Positions 27,538 to 43,512 of a stretch of 56,879 bases of DNA are shown here, piece by piece; the first letter of the stretch is position 1; each line of letters starts with the position of its first letter. Origin of the DNA: an uncultured SAR86 cluster bacterium (GTDB taxonomy: Bacteria > Pseudomonadota > Gammaproteobacteria > Magnimaribacterales > D2472); the NCBI GenBank assembly GCA_902547295.1, contig CACCNJ010000008.1:1-56879 (forward strand), written 5' to 3'. The position numbers were made by a program, and so were the translations under genes. The notes below the pieces were generated by a model, which did not search any database, had not been told where the DNA came from, and was given only the letters and a program-made list of their open reading frames with translations.

Positions 27538-28764
27538 TCAATACTCACTTTTAACTATTCTAAGAAGCTTGGAGAAAAACCCTTGATTTTGTTCTGCAAG
27601 CATTTCATGATTAATCTGCTTATAACCATGTTCTATAAGTCCAATTGAGGTTGAATATATTGGATTTTGAAGTATGGACTCCATCCCTTTGAACTTAGAC
27701 GGAATTCCCATTCTTACTGATGTTTGAAAAATTGATTCAGCTAATTCAACAACTCCCTCCATCTTGGAGGTGCCACCAGTAAATACAATTCCAGCAGAAA
27801 TTTTGTCTTCAAACCCATTTCTTGAAATTTCAGCTTTTATTAAATCAAATAGTTCAGAATATCGAGGCTGAATTATGTCGGCTAATGAGCTTCTTGATAG
27901 TTCTCTAGGAGGCCTTCCACCAACACCAAGGACTTCAACAGTTTCATCATCTTTTGTAAATTCGGTGACTGCGCATCCATGTTTTTGTTTTATGTCTTCT
28001 GCTTGAGGTGTAGGCGTTCTTAAAGCTTGTGCAATATCACTTGTTACTTGATCACCTGCAATTGGAATCACCCCAGTGAATACAATTGAGCCTGTATTAA
28101 AAATTGCAATATCCGTCGTCCCCCCTCCAATATCAACCAAACATACTCCAAGATCCTTTTCATCTTCAGAAAGAATAGAATGTGAGCTTGCTAACTGCTC
28201 TAAAACAAACCCGTCTACACTTAGTCCACAATTTTTTATGCATTTTTCGATGTTTTTAATTGCGCTGCTTGCGCATGTAACAAGGTGAACTTTAGCCTCA
28301 AGCCTTACTCCAGACATTCCTAGAGGGTCAAGGCTTACTTCTTGATCATCAATAACAAAGGACTGAGGTAGAACATGAAGAACTCTCTGATCTGATGGTA
28401 TTGAGACTGCTTGAGCTGACTCAATGACTCTGTCAATATCGAATGCCGACACCTCATTATCCTTGATGCCAACAGCGCCTTGTGAATTAAGACTTTTGAT
28501 GTGATTTCCAGCAATTCCAACATAGACCGACTTAATTTTTTCCTCAATCATCGATTGAGCTTGTTCTACTGCTTTGCTAATTGCATCGGTGGTAGCATCA
28601 ATATTTACAACTACACCTTTTTTTAACCCGCTCGATGGATATGCACCCAATGCAACAATTTCAAGTTTAGCTTCGCTATTATATCTTCCTACAATACAAA
28701 CAACTTTTGACGTACCTATGTCCAAACCAACTATTATATTAGAATTTTTATTGTTATTTGCCAT
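27538..28764 (-). CDS. ftsA: FtsA, actin-like divisome assembly protein
   Basis: 408 aa. Actin-fold ATP motifs VGLDIGTSKVVCIVG, VCLVDIGGGTTDIAI and GIVFTGGTSKMEG are present, and the C-terminus ends with a membrane-targeting amphipathic helix (GFFSKLLRIVKSEY). It tethers FtsZ to the membrane. It overlaps ftsQ by 11 bases. In nearly all relatives ftsZ follows ftsA directly; here rpsF does. Confidence 0.97.
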   Translation of the reverse strand: MANNNKNSNIIVGLDIGTSKVVCIVGRYNSEAKLEIVALGAYPSSGLKKGVVVNIDATTDAISKAVEQAQSMIEEKIKSVYVGIAGNHIKSLNSQGAVGIKDNEVSAFDIDRVIESAQAVSIPSDQRVLHVLPQSFVIDDQEVSLDPLGMSGVRLEAKVHLVTCASSAIKNIEKCIKNCGLSVDGFVLEQLASSHSILSEDEKDLGVCLVDIGGGTTDIAIFNTGSIVFTGVIPIAGDQVTSDIAQALRTPTPQAEDIKQKHGCAVTEFTKDDETVEVLGVGGRPPRELSRSSLADIIQPRYSELFDLIKAEISRNGFEDKISAGIVFTGGTSKMEGVVELAESIFQTSVRMGIPSKFKGMESILQNPIYSTSIGLIEHGYKQINHEMLAEQNQGFFSKLLRIVKSEY

Positions 28765-29380: not shown

Positions 29381-30293
29381 CGATGATTTTTTGGACTACC
29401 TCATTATAAGTTAAGCCTAATAGACTTCCAGACTTTGGAACATTGCTGTGGCTTGTCATTCCAGGAACTGTGTTAATCTCTATTACATAAAAATTACCTT
29501 TTTTATCTTGAATCAAATCAACTCTTGCCCATGCTTTGCAATTGAGCGCTTCAAATGCTTGAAGAGATACTGATTTAATATCAACTAATTCACTTTGCGT
29601 TAATTTTGCTTCAATATGCAATGTATCGTCTGAAATATACTTTGCATCATAATCATAAAATTCATTTTTTGTAATTATTTCAATAGGCGGATAACATTCT
29701 TTATCAATTACGGTCACAGTTAGTTCTCTTCCATCAATATATTCTTCAAATAAAAAACCTCTTTCACGATTAGTGCATTTTTTATATGCATTTTTAAGGC
29801 TTTCTTCATCACTTATTTTAAAAATATCAATACTGGAGCCATCTTCCTCAGGTTTTAAAAATAAATAATTAAATGGTCTGAATCGATCAAATGATGATGT
29901 ATTTAAACTTTGATTTGCATCTTCTATAGAAAACTCAGAAATACTTAGGGAGACAGGAGTATTTATATTATTTTCTTTTAAGATTTCTTTTGTGACTTTT
30001 TTGTTCCATGTTTTCATGCAAGCTTCAGGACCTGATCCAGAATATAAAATATTTAAATCATCTAAATCTCTTTGAAGTTTACCGGCTTCGCCTTCAAAAC
30101 CATGAAGAGCAATGAATATAAAGTCATAAATCTTTAATTCATTCAAATTGTTAAGATCTTTAAAATCAATTAGATCTGATTCATAGCCTAAATCACAGAT
30201 TGCATTATGAACACCCTTTCCACTTTGTATAGAAACTTCTCTTTCAGAGGAAGAGCCTCCATATAGAACTGCAATTTTATTTATGTTTCCCAT
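29367..30293 (-). CDS. ddl: D-alanine-D-alanine ligase
   Basis: 308 aa, DdlB type. ATP-grasp fold with AVLYGGSSSEREVSIQSG, FIALHGFEGEAGKLQ, and the metal-binding C-terminal ARVDLIQDKKGNFYVIEINTVPGMTSHSNVP. It makes the D-Ala-D-Ala used by MurF. It lies between murC and ftsQ as usual and overlaps murC by 13 bases. Confidence 0.97.
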   Translation of the reverse strand: MGNINKIAVLYGGSSSEREVSIQSGKGVHNAICDLGYESDLIDFKDLNNLNELKIYDFIFIALHGFEGEAGKLQRDLDDLNILYSGSGPEACMKTWNKKVTKEILKENNINTPVSLSISEFSIEDANQSLNTSSFDRFRPFNYLFLKPEEDGSSIDIFKISDEESLKNAYKKCTNRERGFLFEEYIDGRELTVTVIDKECYPPIEIITKNEFYDYDAKYISDDTLHIEAKLTQSELVDIKSVSLQAFEALNCKAWARVDLIQDKKGNFYVIEINTVPGMTSHSNVPKSGSLLGLTYNEVVQKIIDASL

Positions 30294-31675
30294 TGATTTT
30301 TAATTATTTGACAAATATTCGAAACACTACCAGCACCTTGTGTGACTAAAATATCAAAATCATCCTTTTTCTTTTTAATCAAATCTATTACATCATCATG
30401 TTTTTTCAAATAAGTAACATCTTTATGACCATTTTGTTTTAGAGTTTCTACAATTCTCCTTGAGTTTATGCCTTTTATTGGCTTCTCGCTTGCAGAATAA
30501 ATATCTAACATTATTAATGAATCGGTGTGTTTTAATACCTTTATAAAATCATCAAAGAGCTGTGCTGTCCTTGAAAACCTATGTGGTTGAAAAATCATAC
30601 ATACTTTTTTATTTTTATATTCCTCTTTATACGCCTTTATGTTTGATTCAATTTCTAACGGATGATGACCATAATCATCAATTAAGGTTAATGATTTATC
30701 ATCAATTTTAATTTCATGCTTTTCATATCTTCTTCCAACCCCTGTAAATTCTTTAATGCCATTCCTTATTGAGCTAATTGAAATACCTTCCTCTAAAGCA
30801 ACAGCGATTGCAGCTGTTGCATTAAAAACATTATGCTTACCAGGAAGATTAATTTTAAATTTATGAACGTTTCTTGTTTTTTTATCAAAAATTTGAAAAT
30901 CTTGCTTACCGTTTTTTGAAATGATTTTGATAATTTTATAATCACATTCTTTTGATTCTCCAAACGTAACTTGTGATCTAGATATTCTTTTTGAGATTTT
31001 TTTTATGTTCTTATCATCGCCATTAATTATCAGATATCCATAAAAAGGTACGTTTTCTGAAAACAAAACAAATGAATCTAAAAGATTTTCAAAAATGTTA
31101 TTAAAATGAACCAGATGATCATCATCTATATTTGTTAAAACTGCGACATCGGGTTGAAGGTGAATGAATGATCCATCACTCTCATCCGCTTCTGCGACAA
31201 TATATTTTCCTTTACCTAAGTCAGAGTTCTCGTCTGTACTTAAAACTTTTCCTCCAACAACATATGTTGGGCTTAAATTTGCAACACTTAGTATTTTTGC
31301 AATCATGCTTGTTGTTGTGGTTTTACCATGACTCCCAGCAACAGCAATACTTTCATATCCAATCATTATACTTCCAAGCATTTCGGCCCTTGGTATTGAT
31401 GTAATAGAATCTTTTTTTGCCTGGACTAATTCAGGATTTCCGGAACTAATTGCAGATGATATAACTAGCAAATCTGCACCCTTAATATTTTTAGATGAAT
31501 GACCAATAAATACCTTTGCACCATGTTTTTCTAATTTTCTTAATTCACGAGAGTCTGATATGTCAGAACCTGATATTTTGTATCCTTTTTTCAGCAATAC
31601 TTTAGCAATACCTATCATTCCTGCTCCACCAATTCCTACAAAATGGATATGTTTTACTTTTTTAAAAAATTTCAT
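30281..31675 (-). CDS. murC: UDP-N-acetylmuramate-L-alanine ligase
   Basis: 464 aa. N-terminal Rossmann GIGGAGMIGIAKVL, P-loop AGSHGKTTTTSM, DESDGSF, and the C-terminal IDDYGHHPLEIESNIKA and FQPHRFSRTAQLFDDF segments of MurC are all present. It adds the first peptide residue to UDP-MurNAc. The ATG overlaps the murG stop (ATGA). Confidence 0.98.
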   Translation of the reverse strand: MKFFKKVKHIHFVGIGGAGMIGIAKVLLKKGYKISGSDISDSRELRKLEKHGAKVFIGHSSKNIKGADLLVISSAISSGNPELVQAKKDSITSIPRAEMLGSIMIGYESIAVAGSHGKTTTTSMIAKILSVANLSPTYVVGGKVLSTDENSDLGKGKYIVAEADESDGSFIHLQPDVAVLTNIDDDHLVHFNNIFENLLDSFVLFSENVPFYGYLIINGDDKNIKKISKRISRSQVTFGESKECDYKIIKIISKNGKQDFQIFDKKTRNVHKFKINLPGKHNVFNATAAIAVALEEGISISSIRNGIKEFTGVGRRYEKHEIKIDDKSLTLIDDYGHHPLEIESNIKAYKEEYKNKKVCMIFQPHRFSRTAQLFDDFIKVLKHTDSLIMLDIYSASEKPIKGINSRRIVETLKQNGHKDVTYLKKHDDVIDLIKKKKDDFDILVTQGAGSVSNICQIIKNQWET

Positions 31676-32718: not shown

Positions 32719-33828
32719 TTAGAGAACTTTATTTTCATTATTTATTCTAAGGACAATCCCCATTAAAGATAACATTATAATGATACTTGTTCCTCCATAG
32801 CTGATAAAAGGTAATGTAAGGCCCTTAGTTGGCAAAAGACCAATATTTACTGCTATATTAAACAAGGCTTGGATTGATATTAAAAGAAATACACCAAACA
32901 CTACATATCCCTGAAATAATCTATCTTTTTTGAAAGAATCAAAAGATATAAAAATCAATCCAATCAACATAGTCACATATAAAAAAATTAACAACATGCC
33001 TCCTATTATTCCAAGTTCCTCAACTAAAATTGCAAATATAAAATCTGTATGAGCTTCAGGTAAAAAAAAGCTTTTTTGAAAACTATTTCCTAGGCCAAGA
33101 CCAAACCATCCCCCTTGACCAATGCTTATTAAAGAATTGGACAATTGCCATCCTGCATTTTGCACAACATCTAATGCAAAAGGATCTGTGAATGCTAAAA
33201 CCCTAGCTAATCTCATTGGTGAAGACGTTATTGCTAAGTAACCTAACAAAATAATTAATAAAACTAGCAAACAAATTTGATAGAAAGATATGCCTGCATA
33301 AAAAAGAATACCAACAACTAGAAAGCAAATGATGGCTGTAGAACCAAGATCAGGTTGGCCCATTACTAGTAAAGATATTATGAATAACAGAAATAATGGT
33401 TTTAAGAAACTTCTAAGCGAATTCATTTCTGACATTCTTCTAACAGAGTATCCAGAAATATATAGAATTAAACTAAATTTACAAATCTCCGAGGGCTGTA
33501 TATTAATTGGTCCCATTCTTATCCATCTAATACTCCCATTTACACTTGTACCAACTTCAGGAATAAAAAGAATAATTAAAAGAATTATGCTCAATAACAT
33601 AAATATCCAATCGGACTTTAAAAGAAAATCTGATGGCAATATTAAGAAAAATGTCATTGAAAATAGTCCCACTGATATAAATAATGCTTGTCTTTTAGCA
33701 AAATGGAAGGGATTAGAGGTCATATCATCAGCAATATATATGCTTGATGAAGTTACCATTACCAGACCTATAATAAGCAATAAACCCAATGGCAAAATTA
33801 CCAAAATGTCACTCCTACTAATATTCAT
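32719..33828 (-). CDS. ftsW: FtsW, septal SEDS peptidoglycan glycosyltransferase
   Basis: 369 aa with about ten membrane helices. SEDS signature segments: WIRMGPINIQPSEICKFSLILY, QPDLGSTAI, GWQLSNSLISIGQGGWFGLGLG, LPEAHTDFIFAILVEELG and the C-terminal LPTKGLTLPFISYGGTS. The partner transpeptidase FtsI is encoded upstream in the same cluster. It abuts murD and murG without spacing. Confidence 0.97.
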   Translation of the reverse strand: MNISRSDILVILPLGLLLIIGLVMVTSSSIYIADDMTSNPFHFAKRQALFISVGLFSMTFFLILPSDFLLKSDWIFMLLSIILLIILFIPEVGTSVNGSIRWIRMGPINIQPSEICKFSLILYISGYSVRRMSEMNSLRSFLKPLFLLFIISLLVMGQPDLGSTAIICFLVVGILFYAGISFYQICLLVLLIILLGYLAITSSPMRLARVLAFTDPFALDVVQNAGWQLSNSLISIGQGGWFGLGLGNSFQKSFFLPEAHTDFIFAILVEELGIIGGMLLIFLYVTMLIGLIFISFDSFKKDRLFQGYVVFGVFLLISIQALFNIAVNIGLLPTKGLTLPFISYGGTSIIIMLSLMGIVLRINNENKVL

Positions 33829-35949: not shown

Positions 35950-37282
35950 CTATAAATCTCTCCATTTTCATACCTCTTGAACCTTTTATTAAGATAACAT
36001 TTTTTGAAGTTATATTTTTCCTTAAATAGTTTTTTAACTTAGTCTCATCATTAAAAAAAATCCCATTTTTTCCAAAGCCATCAATTGAATATCTTGTAAG
36101 ATTGCCAAATGCAATCAATTTACTGATTCCCTTAGATTTTGCATATTCCCCAACTTCTTTATGAAGTTTATTTTTATACCTACCCAACTCCAACATGTCT
36201 CCTAATAATAAGACAGTTTTTTTGTTGTAATTACTTAATAAATCAATAGATTTTTTTGTTGAATCTGGATTTGCATTATAACTATCATCAATTAAGGTAG
36301 ATCCTTTTAGCCATTTGTATTTTACCTGCCTTAAATTGTCGAGTTTAGATAAGCTAATTGATTTTGAAAAATCCTTTAGGTTTTGACCCAGACAATAATG
36401 CACTGCACAAGCTGAAAGAATATTTTTAACATTATGAATTCCTTCCAGTGAAGATGATATTTTTATTGGTTTTTCAAGCAGTCTCGAGGTGACTAAAAAG
36501 CTTAGTCCATTTTGTTTTATTTTTACGTCAATAGGATAAAAATCAGCATCATCCTTCATACCAAAAGAAATTGTTGTTATATCTGATCTCATTTTTTTCC
36601 ATTTATTAAGATGCTTCTTATTATCATTAGGTACAACTAAAAAGCCATTTTTCTTAATATTTTTAACTATTTCAGACTTTACTTTAAAAACACCATCAAT
36701 ATTCTTTAGGGACTCTAAATGTGAATTTCCAATATTTGTTATTAATCCAATATTAGGTTGTAAGATTTTACTAAGATAATCAATGTCATTTAATTTGGAG
36801 GCACCGATTTCAAAAATTAAATTCGTTGATTTAAAAGAAGCATTCATCAAGCTCAGAGGCATACCGATTTCGTTATTAAAATTTTTTAAAGTTTTTGAGT
36901 TATTCTTTAGGGTTTTACCAATAATATTTGTTGTTGTTGTTTTTCCATTGCTGCCAGTAATCGCAATTACGTTACCACCATAATCTTTTATGATGTTATT
37001 TGATATTGTTTTAAGTGCTTTTATCGAATCATTCACCCATATAATTCTTTTATCTTTATTGTTTTTAAAACGTTTATTATCAGCAATAATAATATTCGAA
37101 CCTTTTGAGAGTGCCTCATCAACAAAATCATTTCCATCAAAATTTTCACCTTTTATAGCTATAAATAATGAATTCTTTTTTAATGATCTTGTATCAGTTG
37201 AAATCGATTTTATTAGTGCATTAAATTTTATTTTCTTATTAAGAAATTTTGCTAAATCTGAAGTATTAGTTATAAATTTCAT
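35942..37282 (-). CDS. murF: MurF, D-Ala-D-Ala-adding ligase
   Basis: 446 aa from ATG 37282, with GAGG six bases upstream (a TTG sits just before). P-loop [28 protein letters not shown], and the ATP ligase C-terminal segments [19 protein letters not shown] and [10 protein letters not shown]. It completes the UDP-MurNAc-pentapeptide. Overlaps murE by 17 bases. Confidence 0.97.
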
Positions 37283-38729
37283 CAACTACCTCATGGTCAC
37301 TAAAATGATAAATCTTTCCATCAATTTCTTGAGTTTGTTCATGTCCTTTGCCAAGAATTAACAAACAACTATTTTTATCCAAAAATTTATTTGCATTGAT
37401 TATTGCCTCTTTTCTATCTTCTATGATTGTTATATCTCTCTGATTATTCCCTTTCATGGCATCTTTTATAATATTTTCAAATTTCTCACTCCTGGAATTG
37501 TCTGATGTTAAAAAAATTTTAGATGAATTGTCTAAAGCAATTTTTAACATCTTTGCTCGTTTAGATTTGTCTCTATCGCCTCCAAAACCAAAAACTAAAA
37601 TTAAATTATCGAAATATTTTTTGATTGAACATAATAGCACTTCAAAAGAGTGAGAATTATGGGCATAGTCTATGATTATATTTTTAGAAATATTATTTAT
37701 AACCTCAGTCCTGCCTTTTGGTAACTTGATGAAAGATAGATCATTAACATACTTATCAGAGAATTCATCAAATCCTATTGAAGAAATTGCAAATATAAGA
37801 TTAGTAATATTAAACTCTGGGAAAAGAGCGCATTTAAATTTATATTTCTTATTTTTATGTATTTCTTGCCCGCTTGGTGGGTTATTAAGAAATATTTTAA
37901 ATTCGCAATTTTTAAAATTAGCTTTTGTGATTTTATAATAAATATCAGAAAAATTATTTTTACTACTGATAGATGTCAACTTTGTTTCTTTTAAATAATC
38001 ATAGTTCTTTACAAAGTTATTAGATTCATCAGTGACAAGTTTTATTGGCGAATTCATTTTAAAGATACTAAATTTTGAGTCTCTATAAGAAGAAATATCC
38101 TTATGGTAATCCAAATGATCTTCACCAATATTTAATATTGATGCAGAATTTAGCCTTTGAATGCCATCAAGCCTATTTTGATCAAGCGAATGAGATGATA
38201 CTTCCAGACATATACTTATAGAGTCTAAACCGCAATTAAGTGAATCAAGTATTTCATATAATTCAAATATATCTGGAGTTGTTTTATTTGAAAATTTTGT
38301 TTGAATTTTTTCATCATTATGTTTGATACCCAATGTACCTATGTATAAAGATTCATAATCCATATTACGAAGTAATTGATGACAAATGTAAGCAGTTGAC
38401 GACTTGCCATTTGTGCCTGTAAATGCGAAAAAATTATTACTATTAATATCTATTGAATAAAAGGAATCTAAAAATTTAATAATATTTTTTTTTAGATCTT
38501 TTGAGTAAATTATCTTTTCATTATTTTTTACAAACAAAGGATCGTCGTGAATAACCAACGATGCTCCATTCTTAATGGCATCTTTAGCATACTTGCTTCC
38601 ATGAACTTTAGTTCCTTTGAATCCAAAAAAAATTGAATCCTTTGTTACCTTCTTTGATGAATTGGTTACAGCTTTAATTTTAGTATTTTTAGGAATTTTT
38701 ATACCTAATATTTCTTCATATTCACTCAT
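37266..38729 (-). CDS. murE: MurE, UDP-MurNAc-tripeptide synthetase
   Basis: 487 aa from ATG 38729 (AGGA ten bases upstream); TTG 38735 is the alternative. P-loop FTGTNGKSSTAY, KTTPDIFELYEIL, SHSLDQNRLDG and DYAHNSHSFEVLL are present. The residue-specificity loop reads DNSRSE where diaminopimelate-adding enzymes usually have DNPR; the retained arginine suggests meso-diaminopimelate as substrate. Overlaps ftsI by eight bases. Confidence 0.96.
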   Translation of the reverse strand: MSEYEEILGIKIPKNTKIKAVTNSSKKVTKDSIFFGFKGTKVHGSKYAKDAIKNGASLVIHDDPLFVKNNEKIIYSKDLKKNIIKFLDSFYSIDINSNNFFAFTGTNGKSSTAYICHQLLRNMDYESLYIGTLGIKHNDEKIQTKFSNKTTPDIFELYEILDSLNCGLDSISICLEVSSHSLDQNRLDGIQRLNSASILNIGEDHLDYHKDISSYRDSKFSIFKMNSPIKLVTDESNNFVKNYDYLKETKLTSISSKNNFSDIYYKITKANFKNCEFKIFLNNPPSGQEIHKNKKYKFKCALFPEFNITNLIFAISSIGFDEFSDKYVNDLSFIKLPKGRTEVINNISKNIIIDYAHNSHSFEVLLCSIKKYFDNLILVFGFGGDRDKSKRAKMLKIALDNSSKIFLTSDNSRSEKFENIIKDAMKGNNQRDITIIEDRKEAIINANKFLDKNSCLLILGKGHEQTQEIDGKIYHFSDHEVVDEIYN

Positions 38730-40341
38730 CTTCAAAATATCCTAAGTGATTTAGAGAATTTTCTGCAATCTTTGCAAAAGCAGGTGCTGCCACACTGCCA
38801 CCAGAATATGAATCTAAACTTGGATCATCTATAGAAACAAATATTGTCAGAGAGTTTTTGTTTAAAGGCGTTATTCCTATGAATGAAGCCCTATACATAT
38901 CTTCCGCATAACCTGATCCAGATCTTATTTGGTGAACAGTTCCAGTCTTACCTCCTTGAGAAAACCCATTAACATTTGCAGCTTTTCCTGTTCCTTCTTT
39001 TGTAGCCATTTCTAAAGCTTTCAAAATATTTGATGCAGTTGATTCAGAAATAACTCTTCTCGATGAAACATCTTCGTCTTTGAGCAGCTTAAAATCTTTA
39101 AAAATCCCATTGTTAGCAAATACTGAATAAGCTGATGCTATCTGAAAAGGGCTAATTGTTAAGCCATAACCATACCCTAAACTTGCAAGTTCTTTGTCAA
39201 CAATTTTATCCTTAATGGCCATATAGCCAAATGCGGATGATGGAAAGTTAATTGAAATTGGTTTTGTAAAACCAAAATCATAATAATTTGATTTTAGATC
39301 ATCATATCCTAGCTCTAAAGCAATTTTAGATGCTCCAATTTGACTAGAATATGTAATTATTTCTGCTGGCGTTAGTTTCGCATATTGCTTTGAATCGACA
39401 ATAATCTTGTCATTAAGATACAGTCTTCTTGGTATATCTATATACTCATCGATATTCACAATTTTTTGTTCAAGAGCTTTTGACAAAACAATGGGTTTTA
39501 AGACTGAGCCCAACTCGTATGCATCGACCAAAGCCCTGTTCTTTTGTATCTTTCTTTGAGGATGATTTGGGTTATATGATGGAAAGCTTGCCATAGCCAG
39601 TATTTCACCATCTATATTATTTAAAATTATAGCTGTTCCAGATTTTGCTTTGTTGCTTTTTATGGCCTCAACTAAGAATTTGTATGCATAAAATTGTAAA
39701 GTACTATCAATAGTTAGATGTATATCACTTCCTTGTATCGTTCTAGAAACTTCAATAGGTTTTGAAATAATTTCTTGTTTTGCATTCTTAAAGTATTTTT
39801 GCCTCCCCTTTTTACCTGATAAAACCTTGTCATAACTTTTTTCAAGTCCCTCTTGTGCCCCATCTTTACCGTAGAATCCGATTAAAGGTGCAATTTGATC
39901 GCCCAACGGATAATGTCTACTTTGACGAACCTCCACCTCTATATTTTTTAATCTTGAATTTCTGATTTCTATTAACGCTTCATTTGAAATGTTTTTCTTT
40001 AAAAGCGTTTTTTTGTTGAAAACTTCAATTCCAGGATCAATATCCAAATCAACTTTTTCTGATATATTAAGCAGCTGAGATTTTGTAAATCCCCTTAAAG
40101 CATAAAGATCATAATTAATTACCGATACTGCTAACGGAAAATTGTTTCTGTCGTATATTGTTCCCCTTACTGGCACAACGTCTTTGTATTTAACATACCT
40201 CTTGTTACCTTCATTCTGAAGGAAACTACTCTCAAAAAATTGTATTGAGAAAATCTTATAGATTATTGCTATCAAGCAAATAAAAATAGCAACAGCTATT
40301 AGTATAAATCTCCAATTTAAGTAATTGAGTTTTTTATTCAT
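38722..40341 (-). CDS. ftsI: FtsI (PBP3), septal transpeptidase
   Basis: 539 aa. One N-terminal membrane helix (about 12-31), the dimerisation/pedestal region with VVPVRGTIYDRNNFPLAVS, and the penicillin-binding domain: SxxK at S279-K282 (GSVLKP), KTG at 465-467. The SxN motif, SSN in E. coli, reads S332-S333-Q334. It crosslinks septal peptidoglycan with FtsW. Overlaps ftsL by eight bases. Confidence 0.97.
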   Translation of the reverse strand: MNKKLNYLNWRFILIAVAIFICLIAIIYKIFSIQFFESSFLQNEGNKRYVKYKDVVPVRGTIYDRNNFPLAVSVINYDLYALRGFTKSQLLNISEKVDLDIDPGIEVFNKKTLLKKNISNEALIEIRNSRLKNIEVEVRQSRHYPLGDQIAPLIGFYGKDGAQEGLEKSYDKVLSGKKGRQKYFKNAKQEIISKPIEVSRTIQGSDIHLTIDSTLQFYAYKFLVEAIKSNKAKSGTAIILNNIDGEILAMASFPSYNPNHPQRKIQKNRALVDAYELGSVLKPIVLSKALEQKIVNIDEYIDIPRRLYLNDKIIVDSKQYAKLTPAEIITYSSQIGASKIALELGYDDLKSNYYDFGFTKPISINFPSSAFGYMAIKDKIVDKELASLGYGYGLTISPFQIASAYSVFANNGIFKDFKLLKDEDVSSRRVISESTASNILKALEMATKEGTGKAANVNGFSQGGKTGTVHQIRSGSGYAEDMYRASFIGITPLNKNSLTIFVSIDDPSLDSYSGGSVAAPAFAKIAENSLNHLGYFEDE

Positions 40342-40603
40342 AATTAATTTTTTTAGGTCTCTTTTTTGTCATTCCTAAATCTTCTTTAGCAATTTTTTCA
40401 ATGATTGCTGGAGAATTTTCCAAATGGTACTGTGTTGTTAATTTAAGATTGAGATCTTTAAGTTTTTCAAACTCAACTTTTATATTTTCACTATTGTTAT
40501 AAAGAGTGCTTATTTCCCATGATAATTTTATTTTTTCAATACTTAGAATAAAGATTAAAACTATTAAAAATAGATATTGAAATATTATTTTCTTTTTAAT
40601 CAT
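40334..40603 (-). CDS. ftsL: FtsL, divisome coiled coil
   Basis: 89 aa. A membrane helix at about 7-22 followed by a coiled coil (STLYNNSENIKVEFEKLKDLNLKL) and a conserved-type end (EKIAKEDLGMTKKRPKKI). It forms the FtsQLB complex. Identification rests on size, topology, the EDLGM motif and its place between rsmH and ftsI. ATGA overlap with rsmH. Confidence 0.92.
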   Translation of the reverse strand: MIKKKIIFQYLFLIVLIFILSIEKIKLSWEISTLYNNSENIKVEFEKLKDLNLKLTTQYHLENSPAIIEKIAKEDLGMTKKRPKKINYE

Positions 40604-41493
40604 ATTTTTTGAAAGACCCTCATTATTGCACTTCTTGATCTTGGGTTAATATTTGTTTCATCTTTGGAGGCCCTGACTTTTTTTGCAATACATTTAAATT
40701 TCTTTTCTTCTTTGTTATTTATAGGAATATCTTTGGGGAAAGATACCAAGGATGGTTTAAAAAAATTTTTGATAATATTATCCTCTAATGAATGAAAAGC
40801 TATTGTTACTATATAACCACCTAATTTTAAAAGTTTTTCTGCTGCTTTAAGAGATTCAGCAAATTCTTCAAGTTCGTTGTTTATAAAAATACGAAAAGCT
40901 TGAAAAGATTTCGTTGCTGGATGAATTTTTTTATTTTTTTCAGGATGTATGTCTTTTATAATATTTGAAAGTTGAGTCGTTGTTGTAATCTTATTCTTAA
41001 TCTTGCTTTTAACAATCGCATTACTAATTAATTTTGCATGTTTTTCATCACCATATTTATAGAGAATATCTCTGATTTGTTCCTCTGAAGCATTTTCTAA
41101 CCATACAGAAAATGGTATACCTATTTTGTTATTAAAGCGCATATCAAGTGGACCATCTTTATTAAAGCTAAACCCTCTTTCAGGTTGATCAAGATGAGTC
41201 GAGCAAGTACCAAGATCATAGAGAATTCCGCTTATGCTTTCTTCTTTAAAATATTTCTCGATGTTATTAAATGAATCATTAATAATCTTGAAATTATCAT
41301 TTTGAAATTTCATAGCATATTCACATGCATCAGGATCTTTATCGATGCCTGTTAAAAGTCCATCTTTTGATAATTTCTCTAAAATTAACTTTGAATGTCC
41401 GCCCCTACCAAAAGTACAGTCAATATAATGACCGTTTACGTCATTTAGTAAAAAATCAACGGATTCTTCCAGTAAAACTGGAAAATGAAGCAT
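40600..41493 (-). CDS. rsmH: RsmH, 16S rRNA m4C1402 methyltransferase
   Basis: 297 aa. HFPVLLEESVDFL, the SAM site DCTFGRGGHSKLIL, YDLGTCSTHLDQPERGFSF, HPATKSFQAFRIFINNEL and the C-terminal PRSRSAIMRVF are family signatures. It methylates N4 of C1402, where RsmI (encoded at 43527) methylates the 2'-OH. It follows ftsZ by one base, whereas mraZ is its normal upstream neighbour. Confidence 0.97.
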   Translation of the reverse strand: MLHFPVLLEESVDFLLNDVNGHYIDCTFGRGGHSKLILEKLSKDGLLTGIDKDPDACEYAMKFQNDNFKIINDSFNNIEKYFKEESISGILYDLGTCSTHLDQPERGFSFNKDGPLDMRFNNKIGIPFSVWLENASEEQIRDILYKYGDEKHAKLISNAIVKSKIKNKITTTTQLSNIIKDIHPEKNKKIHPATKSFQAFRIFINNELEEFAESLKAAEKLLKLGGYIVTIAFHSLEDNIIKNFFKPSLVSFPKDIPINNKEEKKFKCIAKKVRASKDETNINPRSRSAIMRVFQKI

Positions 41494-41494
41494 T

Positions 41495-42604
41495 TTAATC
41501 TACTTGTTTTCTCATAAAAGTCGGCACATCAAGGAAATCAATTTCCTCTGCAGACGACGTGCCAACTTTTTGACTGGTTTTATCTTTATCCAAACCAACA
41601 GGATTTAATTTCATTGATGGTTCGTTATCAATCACTAAAGATGGTGCTCTTTGGTCCACCCCTGTTGCAACGATTGTTACTTTAATTTCATCTTTATAAC
41701 TTTTGTCAAAAACAAGACCATAAATAATATTTGCATCTTCACTAACAATCTCATCAATAATATCTGCTACCTCAGCTTGATCCCTAAGAGTAGGCTCTTT
41801 ACCTGTGATATTCACCAAAACACCTCTGGCATTTTTAAGATTAATATCATCTAACAATTCACTTTTAACAGCCATTGTTGCTGCAGCTTCAGCTCTATTC
41901 TTGCCACTTGCAATACCTGTACCCATCATGGCAATGCCTTTTTCTGACATAACAGCTTTTACATCAGCAAAGTCAACATTTACATGACCTCTTTGCATAA
42001 TAATATCTGAAATACCTTGAACAGCGCCCTTTAAAACGTCATCAGATTTTGCAAAAGCATCTTGCATGGAAGTATCCAATCCTAATATTTCAAAAAGTTT
42101 CTCATTTGGGATAGTTACAAGGCTGTCTACCTCTTCAACTAATGACGCAAGGCCTTTTTCAGCGGCTCCCATTCTCTTTTTTCCTTCAAATTTAAAGGGT
42201 TTTGTTACTACAGCAACAGTTAATGCTCCTAATTCTTTTGCAATTGATGCAATTACAGGCGCAGCTCCAGTACCTGTACCTCCTCCCATTCCAGCAGTAA
42301 TGAAAACCATATCTGAACCAGATAATAATTCTTCTATTGCCATTCTGTCACTTTCAGCAGCTCTTCTACCAATATCAGGATCCGCTCCAGCACCTAATCC
42401 TTTAGTCAGGCCATTGCCCAGTTTTATTGTAGTTGCGCTTTTTACAGATTTTAAAGCTTGAGTGTCAGTATTTGCACAAATAAAATCTACACCCTTGATA
42501 TCATGATTAATCATATGAAGTATTGCATTTCCTCCACCGCCGCCAACTCCAACAACTTTAATTTTTGCGTTTTCTTGTTTTGTTTCAACTACCTCAAAAT
42601 TCAT
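41495..42604 (-). CDS. ftsZ: FtsZ, tubulin-like division GTPase
   Basis: 369 aa from the second of tandem ATGs (42604), four bases after GGGGAG. The tubulin signature GGGTGTG is at 107-113; the T7 synergy segment FADVKAVMSEKG and a short linker lead to the C-terminal FtsA/ZipA-binding peptide LDVPTFMRKQVD. It forms the Z ring. The protein is ordinary but its place is not: it lies between mraZ and rsmH, not after ftsA. Confidence 0.98.
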   Translation of the reverse strand: MNFEVVETKQENAKIKVVGVGGGGGNAILHMINHDIKGVDFICANTDTQALKSVKSATTIKLGNGLTKGLGAGADPDIGRRAAESDRMAIEELLSGSDMVFITAGMGGGTGTGAAPVIASIAKELGALTVAVVTKPFKFEGKKRMGAAEKGLASLVEEVDSLVTIPNEKLFEILGLDTSMQDAFAKSDDVLKGAVQGISDIIMQRGHVNVDFADVKAVMSEKGIAMMGTGIASGKNRAEAAATMAVKSELLDDINLKNARGVLVNITGKEPTLRDQAEVADIIDEIVSEDANIIYGLVFDKSYKDEIKVTIVATGVDQRAPSLVIDNEPSMKLNPVGLDKDKTSQKVGTSSAEEIDFLDVPTFMRKQVD

Positions 42605-42615
42605 CATACTCCCCT

Positions 42616-43083
42616 TTAAAATGACATTTCTTTAATACTTTCAGGTAGCACAACATCCAAAATCTCTGTTGAAAGAGATCCTCCTGTTTGTCGCATTTCC
42701 CAATTTTTAATATTCCAAATTTCAAATTTGTTACCCATTCCAACTAATGCAACTTGTTTTTGTTCATTTATTTCAGCATAACTTTGCAAATCTGAGGGAA
42801 TTCTAACTAGCATTCTGCCCTCGATATCAATATCTGTTTGATAAGCATTACCAAGTATTGTCCATTGTAAATTTCTAACGATAGGATCTAAGCCCTGAAG
42901 TGATTGAAGTTTTGTTGAAATCCTTTGCCATTCTAAATGATGATAAAGTTTTAAAGATGGATATTGAGGATCTTTTGTTATTACAATTTCGTTATGGTTT
43001 TGTGTTTTAAAGTCAATTCTATACCTAGCAGGAATAGCTATTCTGCCCTTACTATCAATAGATGGCGTATTAAATCCAAACAT
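42616..43083 (-). CDS. mraZ: MraZ, transcriptional regulator of the dcw cluster
   Basis: 155 aa from ATG 43083, giving the family N-terminus MFGFNTPSIDSKGRIAIPARYR; an in-frame ATG at 43143 would translate the operator repeats and is rejected. Two AbrB-like half domains carry DSKGRIAIP and DIEGRMLVRIP. MraZ binds direct repeats ahead of its own gene and controls dcw transcription (repressor in E. coli, activator in Mollicutes). No usable ribosome site: GAGG touches the ATG, and TATATT ends six bases before it, so the mRNA may be leaderless. Confidence 0.96.
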   Translation of the reverse strand: MFGFNTPSIDSKGRIAIPARYRIDFKTQNHNEIVITKDPQYPSLKLYHHLEWQRISTKLQSLQGLDPIVRNLQWTILGNAYQTDIDIEGRMLVRIPSDLQSYAEINEQKQVALVGMGNKFEIWNIKNWEMRQTGGSLSTEILDVVLPESIKEMSF

Positions 43084-43089
43084 CCTCAA

Positions 43090-43095
43090 AATATA
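43090..43095 (-). promoter_or_regulatory. Candidate -10 element for a leaderless mraZ transcript
   Basis: On the minus strand TATATT is followed by TTGAGG and then the mraZ ATG (43083). The six-base distance places the expected start site on the A of the ATG. The operator repeats occupy the region where a -35 would be. Confidence 0.5.
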
Positions 43096-43107
43096 AAGAC
43101 TTTTTAC

Positions 43108-43144
43108 ACACTTTGCAACACTTTTGCACACTTTTTCACACATT
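43108..43144 (-). promoter_or_regulatory. MraZ operator: AAAGTGT repeats with 10-bp period
   Basis: Reading the minus strand, AATGTGT (43144-43138), AAAGTGT (43134-43128), AAAGTGT (43124-43118) and AAAGTGT (43114-43108) are each separated by exactly three bases. Three copies are perfect and the first has one mismatch. The pattern AAAGTG(T/G)-N3 is the published MraZ site of Mollicutes; the E. coli site TGGGN-N5 has the same 10-bp period. It spans -25 to -61 relative to the mraZ ATG. Confidence 0.85.
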
Positions 43145-43174
43145 TATTAAAAGCAAAAAATCTACAAAAATAGA

Positions 43175-43505
43175 GTTGAGTTGGTTTATAAGCCGGATTC
43201 TGTTGTAGATGATCATCTATCTCGATATTATGTTGCCATAATACTCTAGCAACCTACCCAAATCCAAAGCGAGCAACTTTATTGGATTTCTATTTGGTTT
43301 TGCTTCAGGCTGGGGTTTGCAATGCCTTAAATGTTACCACTTAAGCGGTAAGCTCTTACCTTACCTTTTCACCCTTACCAATAAATGGCGGTATATTTTC
43401 TGTTGCACTTTCCGTAAGCTCACGCCTCCCAGGTGTTACCTGGCGCCCTGCTCTTTGAAGTCCGGACTTTCCTCTAAATAAATTTAGCGATCATCCAACC
43501 AACTC
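43175..43505 (-). ncRNA. rnpB: RNase P RNA (bacterial type A)
   Basis: About 330 nt. The universally conserved GAGGAAAGTCCGGAC lies at 43474-43460 (minus strand), followed by CAGGTAACACCTGGGAGGC-like hairpins, ACGGAAAGTGCAACAGAAA, GGTAAGGGTGAAAAGGTAAG and the 3' AGAATCCGGCTTATAA. The ends pair as helix P1 (GAGTTGGTT with AACCAACTC). It is the catalytic RNA that matures tRNA 5' ends. It lies between rsmI and mraZ, a known gammaproteobacterial arrangement. The 3' end is set from P1 and may be a few bases off. Confidence 0.96.
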
Positions 43506-43512
43506 AGACGCT

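Follow-up and report, generated by a model that had tools for sequence, protein, structure and literature searches.

In an uncultured SAR86 cluster bacterium the cell-division gene ftsZ occupies the second place of the dcw cluster, between mraZ and rsmH, and the position behind ftsA where it would be expected is taken by rpsF. The cluster lies on the minus strand of a stretch of 56,879 nucleotides (contig C8, hereafter the window) from an assembly (G000) of 1,053,698 bases in 23 contigs that is 77% complete. Open reading frames and NCBIfam matches agree on this placement, which a first-pass annotation had proposed from the sequence, and also on its statement that the rest of the cluster is canonical from rsmH through ftsA with a full gene set (ftsQ by position). 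We consider it probable, at about 0.6, that ftsZ leads the structural genes of a single long operon autoregulated by MraZ and that its move was favoured for a promoter-proximal, MraZ-tuned dose. The gene order on the minus strand is rsmI, rnpB, mraZ, ftsZ, rsmH, ftsL, ftsI, murE, murF, mraY, murD, ftsW, murG, murC, ddl, ftsQ, ftsA, rpsF, rplI, with the following features.

43173..43506, minus: rnpB (RNase P RNA), RF00010, 321.7 bits; upstream of the operator-like array
43109..43144, minus: MraZ-operator-like array of four AAAGTG-type units in 10-bp steps, the first unit with one mismatch
43090..43118, minus: promoter-like site TTGCAA-17-TATATT, overlapping the array (consensus scan, 9/12 positions)
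42616..43083, minus: mraZ, TIGR00242, 90.8 bits, below the cut-off of 98.35
42608..42615, minus: mraZ-ftsZ spacer AGGGGAGT, 8 nt, Shine-Dalgarno-like, too short for a promoter
41495..42607, minus: ftsZ in second place, TIGR00065, 400.9 bits, above the cut-off of 295.2
40600..41493, minus: rsmH, TIGR00006, 322.8 bits; begins 1 nt past ftsZ
40334..40603, minus: ftsL, TIGR02209, 29.3 bits, below the cut-off of 42.45; named also by position
38722..40341, minus: ftsI, FtsI/PBP2-type matches, all below curated cut-offs; named also by position
37266..38735, minus: murE, TIGR01085, 334.6 bits
35942..37285, minus: murF, TIGR01143, 377.5 bits
34864..35949, minus: mraY, TIGR00445, 444.9 bits
33829..34857, minus: murD, short (342 aa), TIGR01087 matched in two stretches at 193.1 bits, under the cut-off of 211.95
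32719..33828, minus: ftsW, TIGR02614, 369 bits
31672..32718, minus: murG, TIGR01133, 233.7 bits, below the cut-off of 250.25
30281..31675, minus: murC, TIGR01082, 509.4 bits
29367..30293, minus: ddl, NF002378, 283.4 bits
28754..29380, minus: ftsQ, named by position, with the same place in relatives and no NCBIfam match
27538..28764, minus: ftsA, the final dcw gene, TIGR01174, 473.2 bits
26972..27460, minus: rpsF, 77 nt past ftsA, where ftsZ would be expected

The frame of mraZ is open as far as 43143, and its likely true start is at 43083, after whose ATG the family match begins; two PF02381 (MraZ) matches are present in the assembly, and the one listed exceeds the Pfam cut-off. The murD gene of the window may have lost a part, and longer murD matches were seen in two other genera of the family (L065, L091). 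From mraZ to ftsA the cluster measures 15.5 kb. By first start codons no gap between its adjacent frames exceeds 8 nt, and some frames overlap, which leaves the stretch ahead of mraZ as the sole intergenic space that could hold a promoter. Given this single space, and the array there that overlaps the promoter-like site, ftsZ most likely stands first among the structural genes of a single transcript.

The search for a second ftsZ returned a single FtsZ_C match in the whole assembly (77% complete). One match was likewise found in 131 of the 132 ftsZ-bearing genomes of the taxonomic order; the other genome, G083, has two partial matches, each covering part of the domain. Among the 34 genomes of the window's genus, 30 carry an FtsZ_C match, and in all 30 loci (the window's own and 29 from elsewhere in the genus) mraZ is immediately upstream of ftsZ; rsmH follows immediately in 29 and was not found in L025. 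The mraZ-ftsZ junction was present in all ten sampled genera of the window's family, f1, and longer stretches from all ten display the entire gene order to the ends of the stretches (shorter in L068 and L092). Misassembly, or a second ftsZ behind ftsA, was rejected as the source of the unusual order, which is identical in independent genomes, some of them in one or two contigs (two of the 29 other same-genus genomes are in 2 contigs). An assembly artefact, or acquisition of the mraZ-ftsZ pair from a distant donor, is scarcely credible on these grounds, even though the genome is a fragmented draft; the best of the FtsZ matches listed from named genomes also belong to gammaproteobacteria (about 54% identity). 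In its favour stands a pair of relatives in which identity falls sharply where ftsZ meets rsmH: L004 (G012) and L005 (G021) share 91-93% DNA identity with the window across mraZ-ftsZ, and 72-73% in rsmH and ftsL. This is probably a recombination break, suggesting that the mraZ-ftsZ pair can probably be exchanged as a unit among close relatives.

The SAR86 identity of f1 was examined with SAR86-1245, described in the part of PMC8701031 used here as a 16S probe for the SAR86 clade. Its target was matched exactly in the analysed assembly and in 36 of the 151 genomes of the order in all, comprising 36 of 55 f1 genomes and none of 96 in families f2 to f4; the reversed probe gave no match. The match in another f1 genome (L344, G166), the one checked for location, falls in a 16S gene. 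Within the order the target is thus confined to f1, which we take as SAR86 in the strict sense.

The three other families of the order deviate as well. Read at length, f2 (6 of 7 genera) and f3 (4 of 4) have mraZ-rsmH-ftsL-ftsQ-ftsA-ftsZ-ftsI-murE-...-ddl, followed by rpsF where the stretch reaches that far, so that an ftsQ-ftsA-ftsZ block is placed between ftsL and ftsI; ftsA-ftsZ-ftsI was present in all 30 short loci of these two families. Their ftsL and ftsQ were named from frames of suitable size and place; L075 (G035, f3) showed no ftsQ-like frame in the interval from ftsL to ftsA, unlike its relatives. Family f4 (one genus, 7 genomes) has rsmI-rnpB-ftsZ-rsmH-...-ddl-(ftsQ)-ftsA-rpsF, and a profile search gave no mraZ match across the genus. 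The ATG of f4 ftsZ lies 24 nt past the end motif of rnpB in all seven loci (L079, L080, L087, L088, L089, L090, L095), and 19 nt past the Rfam 3' end of rnpB in the six loci scanned. No Shine-Dalgarno sequence was seen by eye before ftsZ in the seven loci, and transcription of the f4 division operon may simply continue from rnpB. A FastTree phylogeny built on seven concatenated dcw proteins gave a support of 1.0 to each of the groups f1+f4 and f2+f3 and of 0.992 to the order; SH-aLRT values in a mixture-model tree were 100, 100 and 98, respectively.

A survey of the class was based on one genome per family, 137 in total with two from this order, all at least 85% complete except that of the window. 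FtsZ_C was found in 128 genomes, RsmH in 129 and both in 124. The two genes share a contig and strand in 91 genomes, and in 80 of these ftsZ lies 12-19 kb behind rsmH. All 38 genomes read out of these 80 have ftsA immediately before ftsZ. So do 36 of an additional 40 genomes with ftsZ and rsmH on separate contigs or at other distances, or with ftsZ alone (G255 is also among the 38); nearly all of this set have split or stretched clusters, and the split cluster of G204 likewise keeps ftsA-ftsZ. The reading left out the ftsZ of G279, at a contig edge, and of G192, beyond the fetched stretch. Outside the moved lineages the pair is kept in 74 of 78 genomes read; in three (G201, G286, G168) contig ends or masked bases leave the position unassignable, and in one (G238, family f75, L116) ftsZ lies outside the dcw cluster, near a gene resembling ispH by eye. 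Among the records listed from named genomes, the 80 best FtsZ matches (identities 47-58%) all have ftsA immediately before ftsZ. With ftsA-ftsZ conserved in 80 of these 80 and in 36 of the 40, the mraZ-ftsZ junction is not a matter of chance.

In four lineages beyond the order ftsZ is one of the first five dcw genes, at a site that differs from lineage to lineage. Bracketed ftsL denotes a gap of fitting size, rarely a profile match. Family f53 has mraZ-rsmH-ftsZ-(ftsL)-ftsI in all 30 loci read, of 57 genomes with ftsZ. In f95 the order is ftsZ-mraZ-rsmH (6/6 loci), with ftsZ placed between the array and mraZ. Family f135 displays mraZ-rsmH-(ftsL)-ftsZ-ftsI in all 21 genomes with ftsZ, and f39 displays mraZ-rsmH-(ftsL)-ftsI-ftsZ-murE in 12 of 12 genomes; two families of the same taxonomic order as f39, f140 and f141, keep ftsA-ftsZ (8/8). 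The ftsA gene remains at the tail in f95, f135 and f39, and was not found near the cluster in f53. Some additional loci look like contamination and were therefore left out of the counts: L199 (G366:C10) and L221 and L241 (both G400) are extra FtsZ loci without dcw neighbours, and L242 (G393:C19, in an f135 genome) is an extra ftsZ locus of f39-type order. The order mraZ-ftsZ-rsmH had been noted at first as unfamiliar from other gammaproteobacteria. Within the class sample this exact order is indeed confined to the one taxonomic order; it is no oddity of one genome, being present in every f1 genus, and the tendency of ftsZ to move to the head is wider.

On a tree of 35 rows, a minimum of 4 changes between moved and canonical states was required, and 6 among all distinct orders; parsimony counts of this kind do not separate gain from reversal. 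Placement of all moved lineages in one clade was rejected in a 19-row set (p-AU 0.000512), and a single common origin is therefore rejected. Deep nodes of the trees are weakly supported, and the placement may be wrong for long rows of odd composition (L181, f135, f39); SAR86, f135 and f39 could share one early move.

The regulatory side of our reading starts from the sequence before mraZ. There, AATGTGTGAAAAAGTGTGCAAAAGTGTTGCAAAGTG (43144-43109) carries AAAGTG-type units in steps of 10, and no other site in the genome (1.05 Mb) matches when up to 2 mismatches are allowed; the reversed pattern gave none. Under a rule of two adjacent units within 150 nt, arrays precede mraZ in 37 of 40 f1 loci, with 0.35 expected, and the other three (L020, L066, L068) possess degenerate arrays by eye. 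By the same rule arrays were found before mraZ in f2 (6/6), f3 (4/4) and f53 (1/1). In f95 the array precedes ftsZ (4/5 loci), and none of the 7 f4 loci, all of which are without mraZ, has one. In one f39 genome (L084) three GTG spaced at exactly 10 nt precede mraZ, and no such array was found in one f135 genome (L083); f53, f135 and f39 are represented here by one genome each. The units match the MraZ site of Mollicutes, which the portion of PMC8475190 drawn on here gives as AAAGTG[T/G] direct repeats, unique in the genome of M. genitalium; the same portion reports FtsZ about 25-fold higher there without MraZ. A promoter controlled by MraZ had been predicted at this place. The genome-unique array and the 8-nt mraZ-ftsZ spacing are consistent with it; the promoter-like site that overlaps the array is weak, TTGCAA-17-TATATT being common by chance (23 such matches in the scan against a mean of 17.2 in shuffles).

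The gene order and its conservation, together with the array and the spacing, suggest the following mechanism. In the family holding SAR86, ftsZ would have shifted from the dcw tail to the slot behind mraZ. MraZ, if it binds the array and represses its own promoter as predicted, would directly set FtsZ synthesis, with ftsQ and ftsA now transcribed 13-14 kb downstream. The supply of ftsZ would then track the MraZ loop and may be greater than that of ftsA, given the place of ftsZ along a transcript of 15.5 kb. That the dose would be set at the operon head, as the first-pass annotation held, follows by inference from the anatomy of the cluster. The joint loss of array and mraZ in f4 was counted for such wiring.

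Several observations were counted against the selective part of this reading: the genome sizes of f53 and f95, the f2/f3 block, G238, f135 without an array and f4 without MraZ. The moves do not share a cause in the loss of internal promoters, since the genomes of f53 and f95 (1.3-3.1 Mb) show no streamlining. Because f2 and f3 carried ftsQ and ftsA along, a parting of ftsZ from ftsA is no general feature, and since f4 kept the order without mraZ, MraZ control is not what maintains it in that family. The narrow mraZ-ftsZ gap was counted for the reading; it spans 11-18 nt in the f1 loci where it could be measured, 31 of 41 (under a start rule different from that giving 8 nt in the window). But short gaps before ftsZ also occur in genomes with ftsZ at the tail: the median is 4 nt in f140/f141 (6 measured), and among the best 80 named matches it is 50 nt, from -19 to 250, with 70 of 80 measured. 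The promoter-like site also counts against the reading, matching at chance level, and a promoter inside mraZ is possible. The ftsZ gene of E. coli is transcribed largely from promoters within ftsQ and ftsA.

Neutral shuffling, by tandem duplication of the cluster and subsequent loss of one copy per gene, would leave the FtsZ dose unaffected and set by translation signals or internal promoters. We regard it as unlikely, though worth serious weighing: the orders of f1, f2/f3, f53, f95, f135 and f39 could each be written as one duplication-loss step from the canonical one, ftsZ retains its own Shine-Dalgarno-like spacer, and the f4 order stayed unchanged after mraZ and the array were lost. However, in the six cases read in the class sample where ftsZ is parted from ftsA and still within the cluster (f1, f4, f53, f95, f135, f39), it is always among the first five genes and never in the middle or second half; elsewhere the ftsA-ftsZ junction survives even where most clusters are split or stretched (the 36 of 40 above), and the orders are constant across the sampled families. 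It is also conceivable, though we think it improbable, that ftsZ and the rest of the cluster are transcribed chiefly as read-through of rnpB or rsmI, to which the mraZ promoter adds little, and that ftsZ gained a strong, steady transcript by its move. The packing of rsmI, rnpB and mraZ, with gaps of 20 and 89 nt, fits this, as do a scan that found no terminator-like site between rnpB and mraZ on that strand and the f4 ftsZ start, 24 nt past the rnpB end motif in all seven loci with no array. But f4 is a separate family, and f1, f2 and f3 all retain the array ahead of mraZ, which would make little sense for a minor promoter. We retain the MraZ-governed operon with ftsZ at its head as the best explanation. 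A bolder extension of it, which we hold doubtful, is that the head moves represent a recurrent, selected rewiring in which MraZ ceased to be a weak regulator of the cluster at large and became a feedback controller dedicated to FtsZ dose, and that f4 then dropped mraZ and operator and reads ftsZ without a Shine-Dalgarno sequence from the RNase P RNA transcript. If this were true, f4 would couple the supply of the division ring to a housekeeping RNA.

These lineages form a natural series of exceptions, with at least 4 changes between moved and canonical states, all of which bring the ring gene nearer the promoter, and they offer a natural test of why dcw gene order is usually so fixed. Relatives with ftsZ at head and tail, such as f39 and f140/f141 within one order, are comparable for FtsZ level, FtsZ:FtsA ratio and MraZ control. 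The relocation also bears on the ratio of ftsZ to RNase P transcripts, presented in the available part of PMC13349992 (2026) as an in situ growth index, SAR86 included. The rnpB and ftsZ genes share a strand, with about 570 nt between them; if the index of that source, as far as it is described in this part, counts rnpB, its two genes are neighbours here.

Compared with the canonical gammaproteobacterial cluster (mraZ-rsmH-ftsL-ftsI-...-ddl-ftsQ-ftsA-ftsZ), that of SAR86 is alike in gene set, strand, start with mraZ and inner order from rsmH to ftsA, and differs in having ftsZ second rather than last and rpsF after ftsA. The clusters of f53, f95, f135, f39 and f2/f3 resemble it in holding ftsZ within the first six dcw positions, whereas their insertion sites differ, except that f135 and f2/f3 share the ftsL-ftsI junction. 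In Mycoplasma genitalium, going by the portion of PMC8475190 drawn on here, the arrangement is mraZ-mraW-MG_223-ftsZ, which has in common with SAR86 an ftsZ close behind mraZ and a genome-unique AAAGTG-type operator (operator-like in SAR86); a rise of FtsZ upon loss of MraZ is reported for M. genitalium. Its cluster comprises four genes with ftsZ still last, whereas SAR86 possesses a full cluster in which ftsZ has been relocated.
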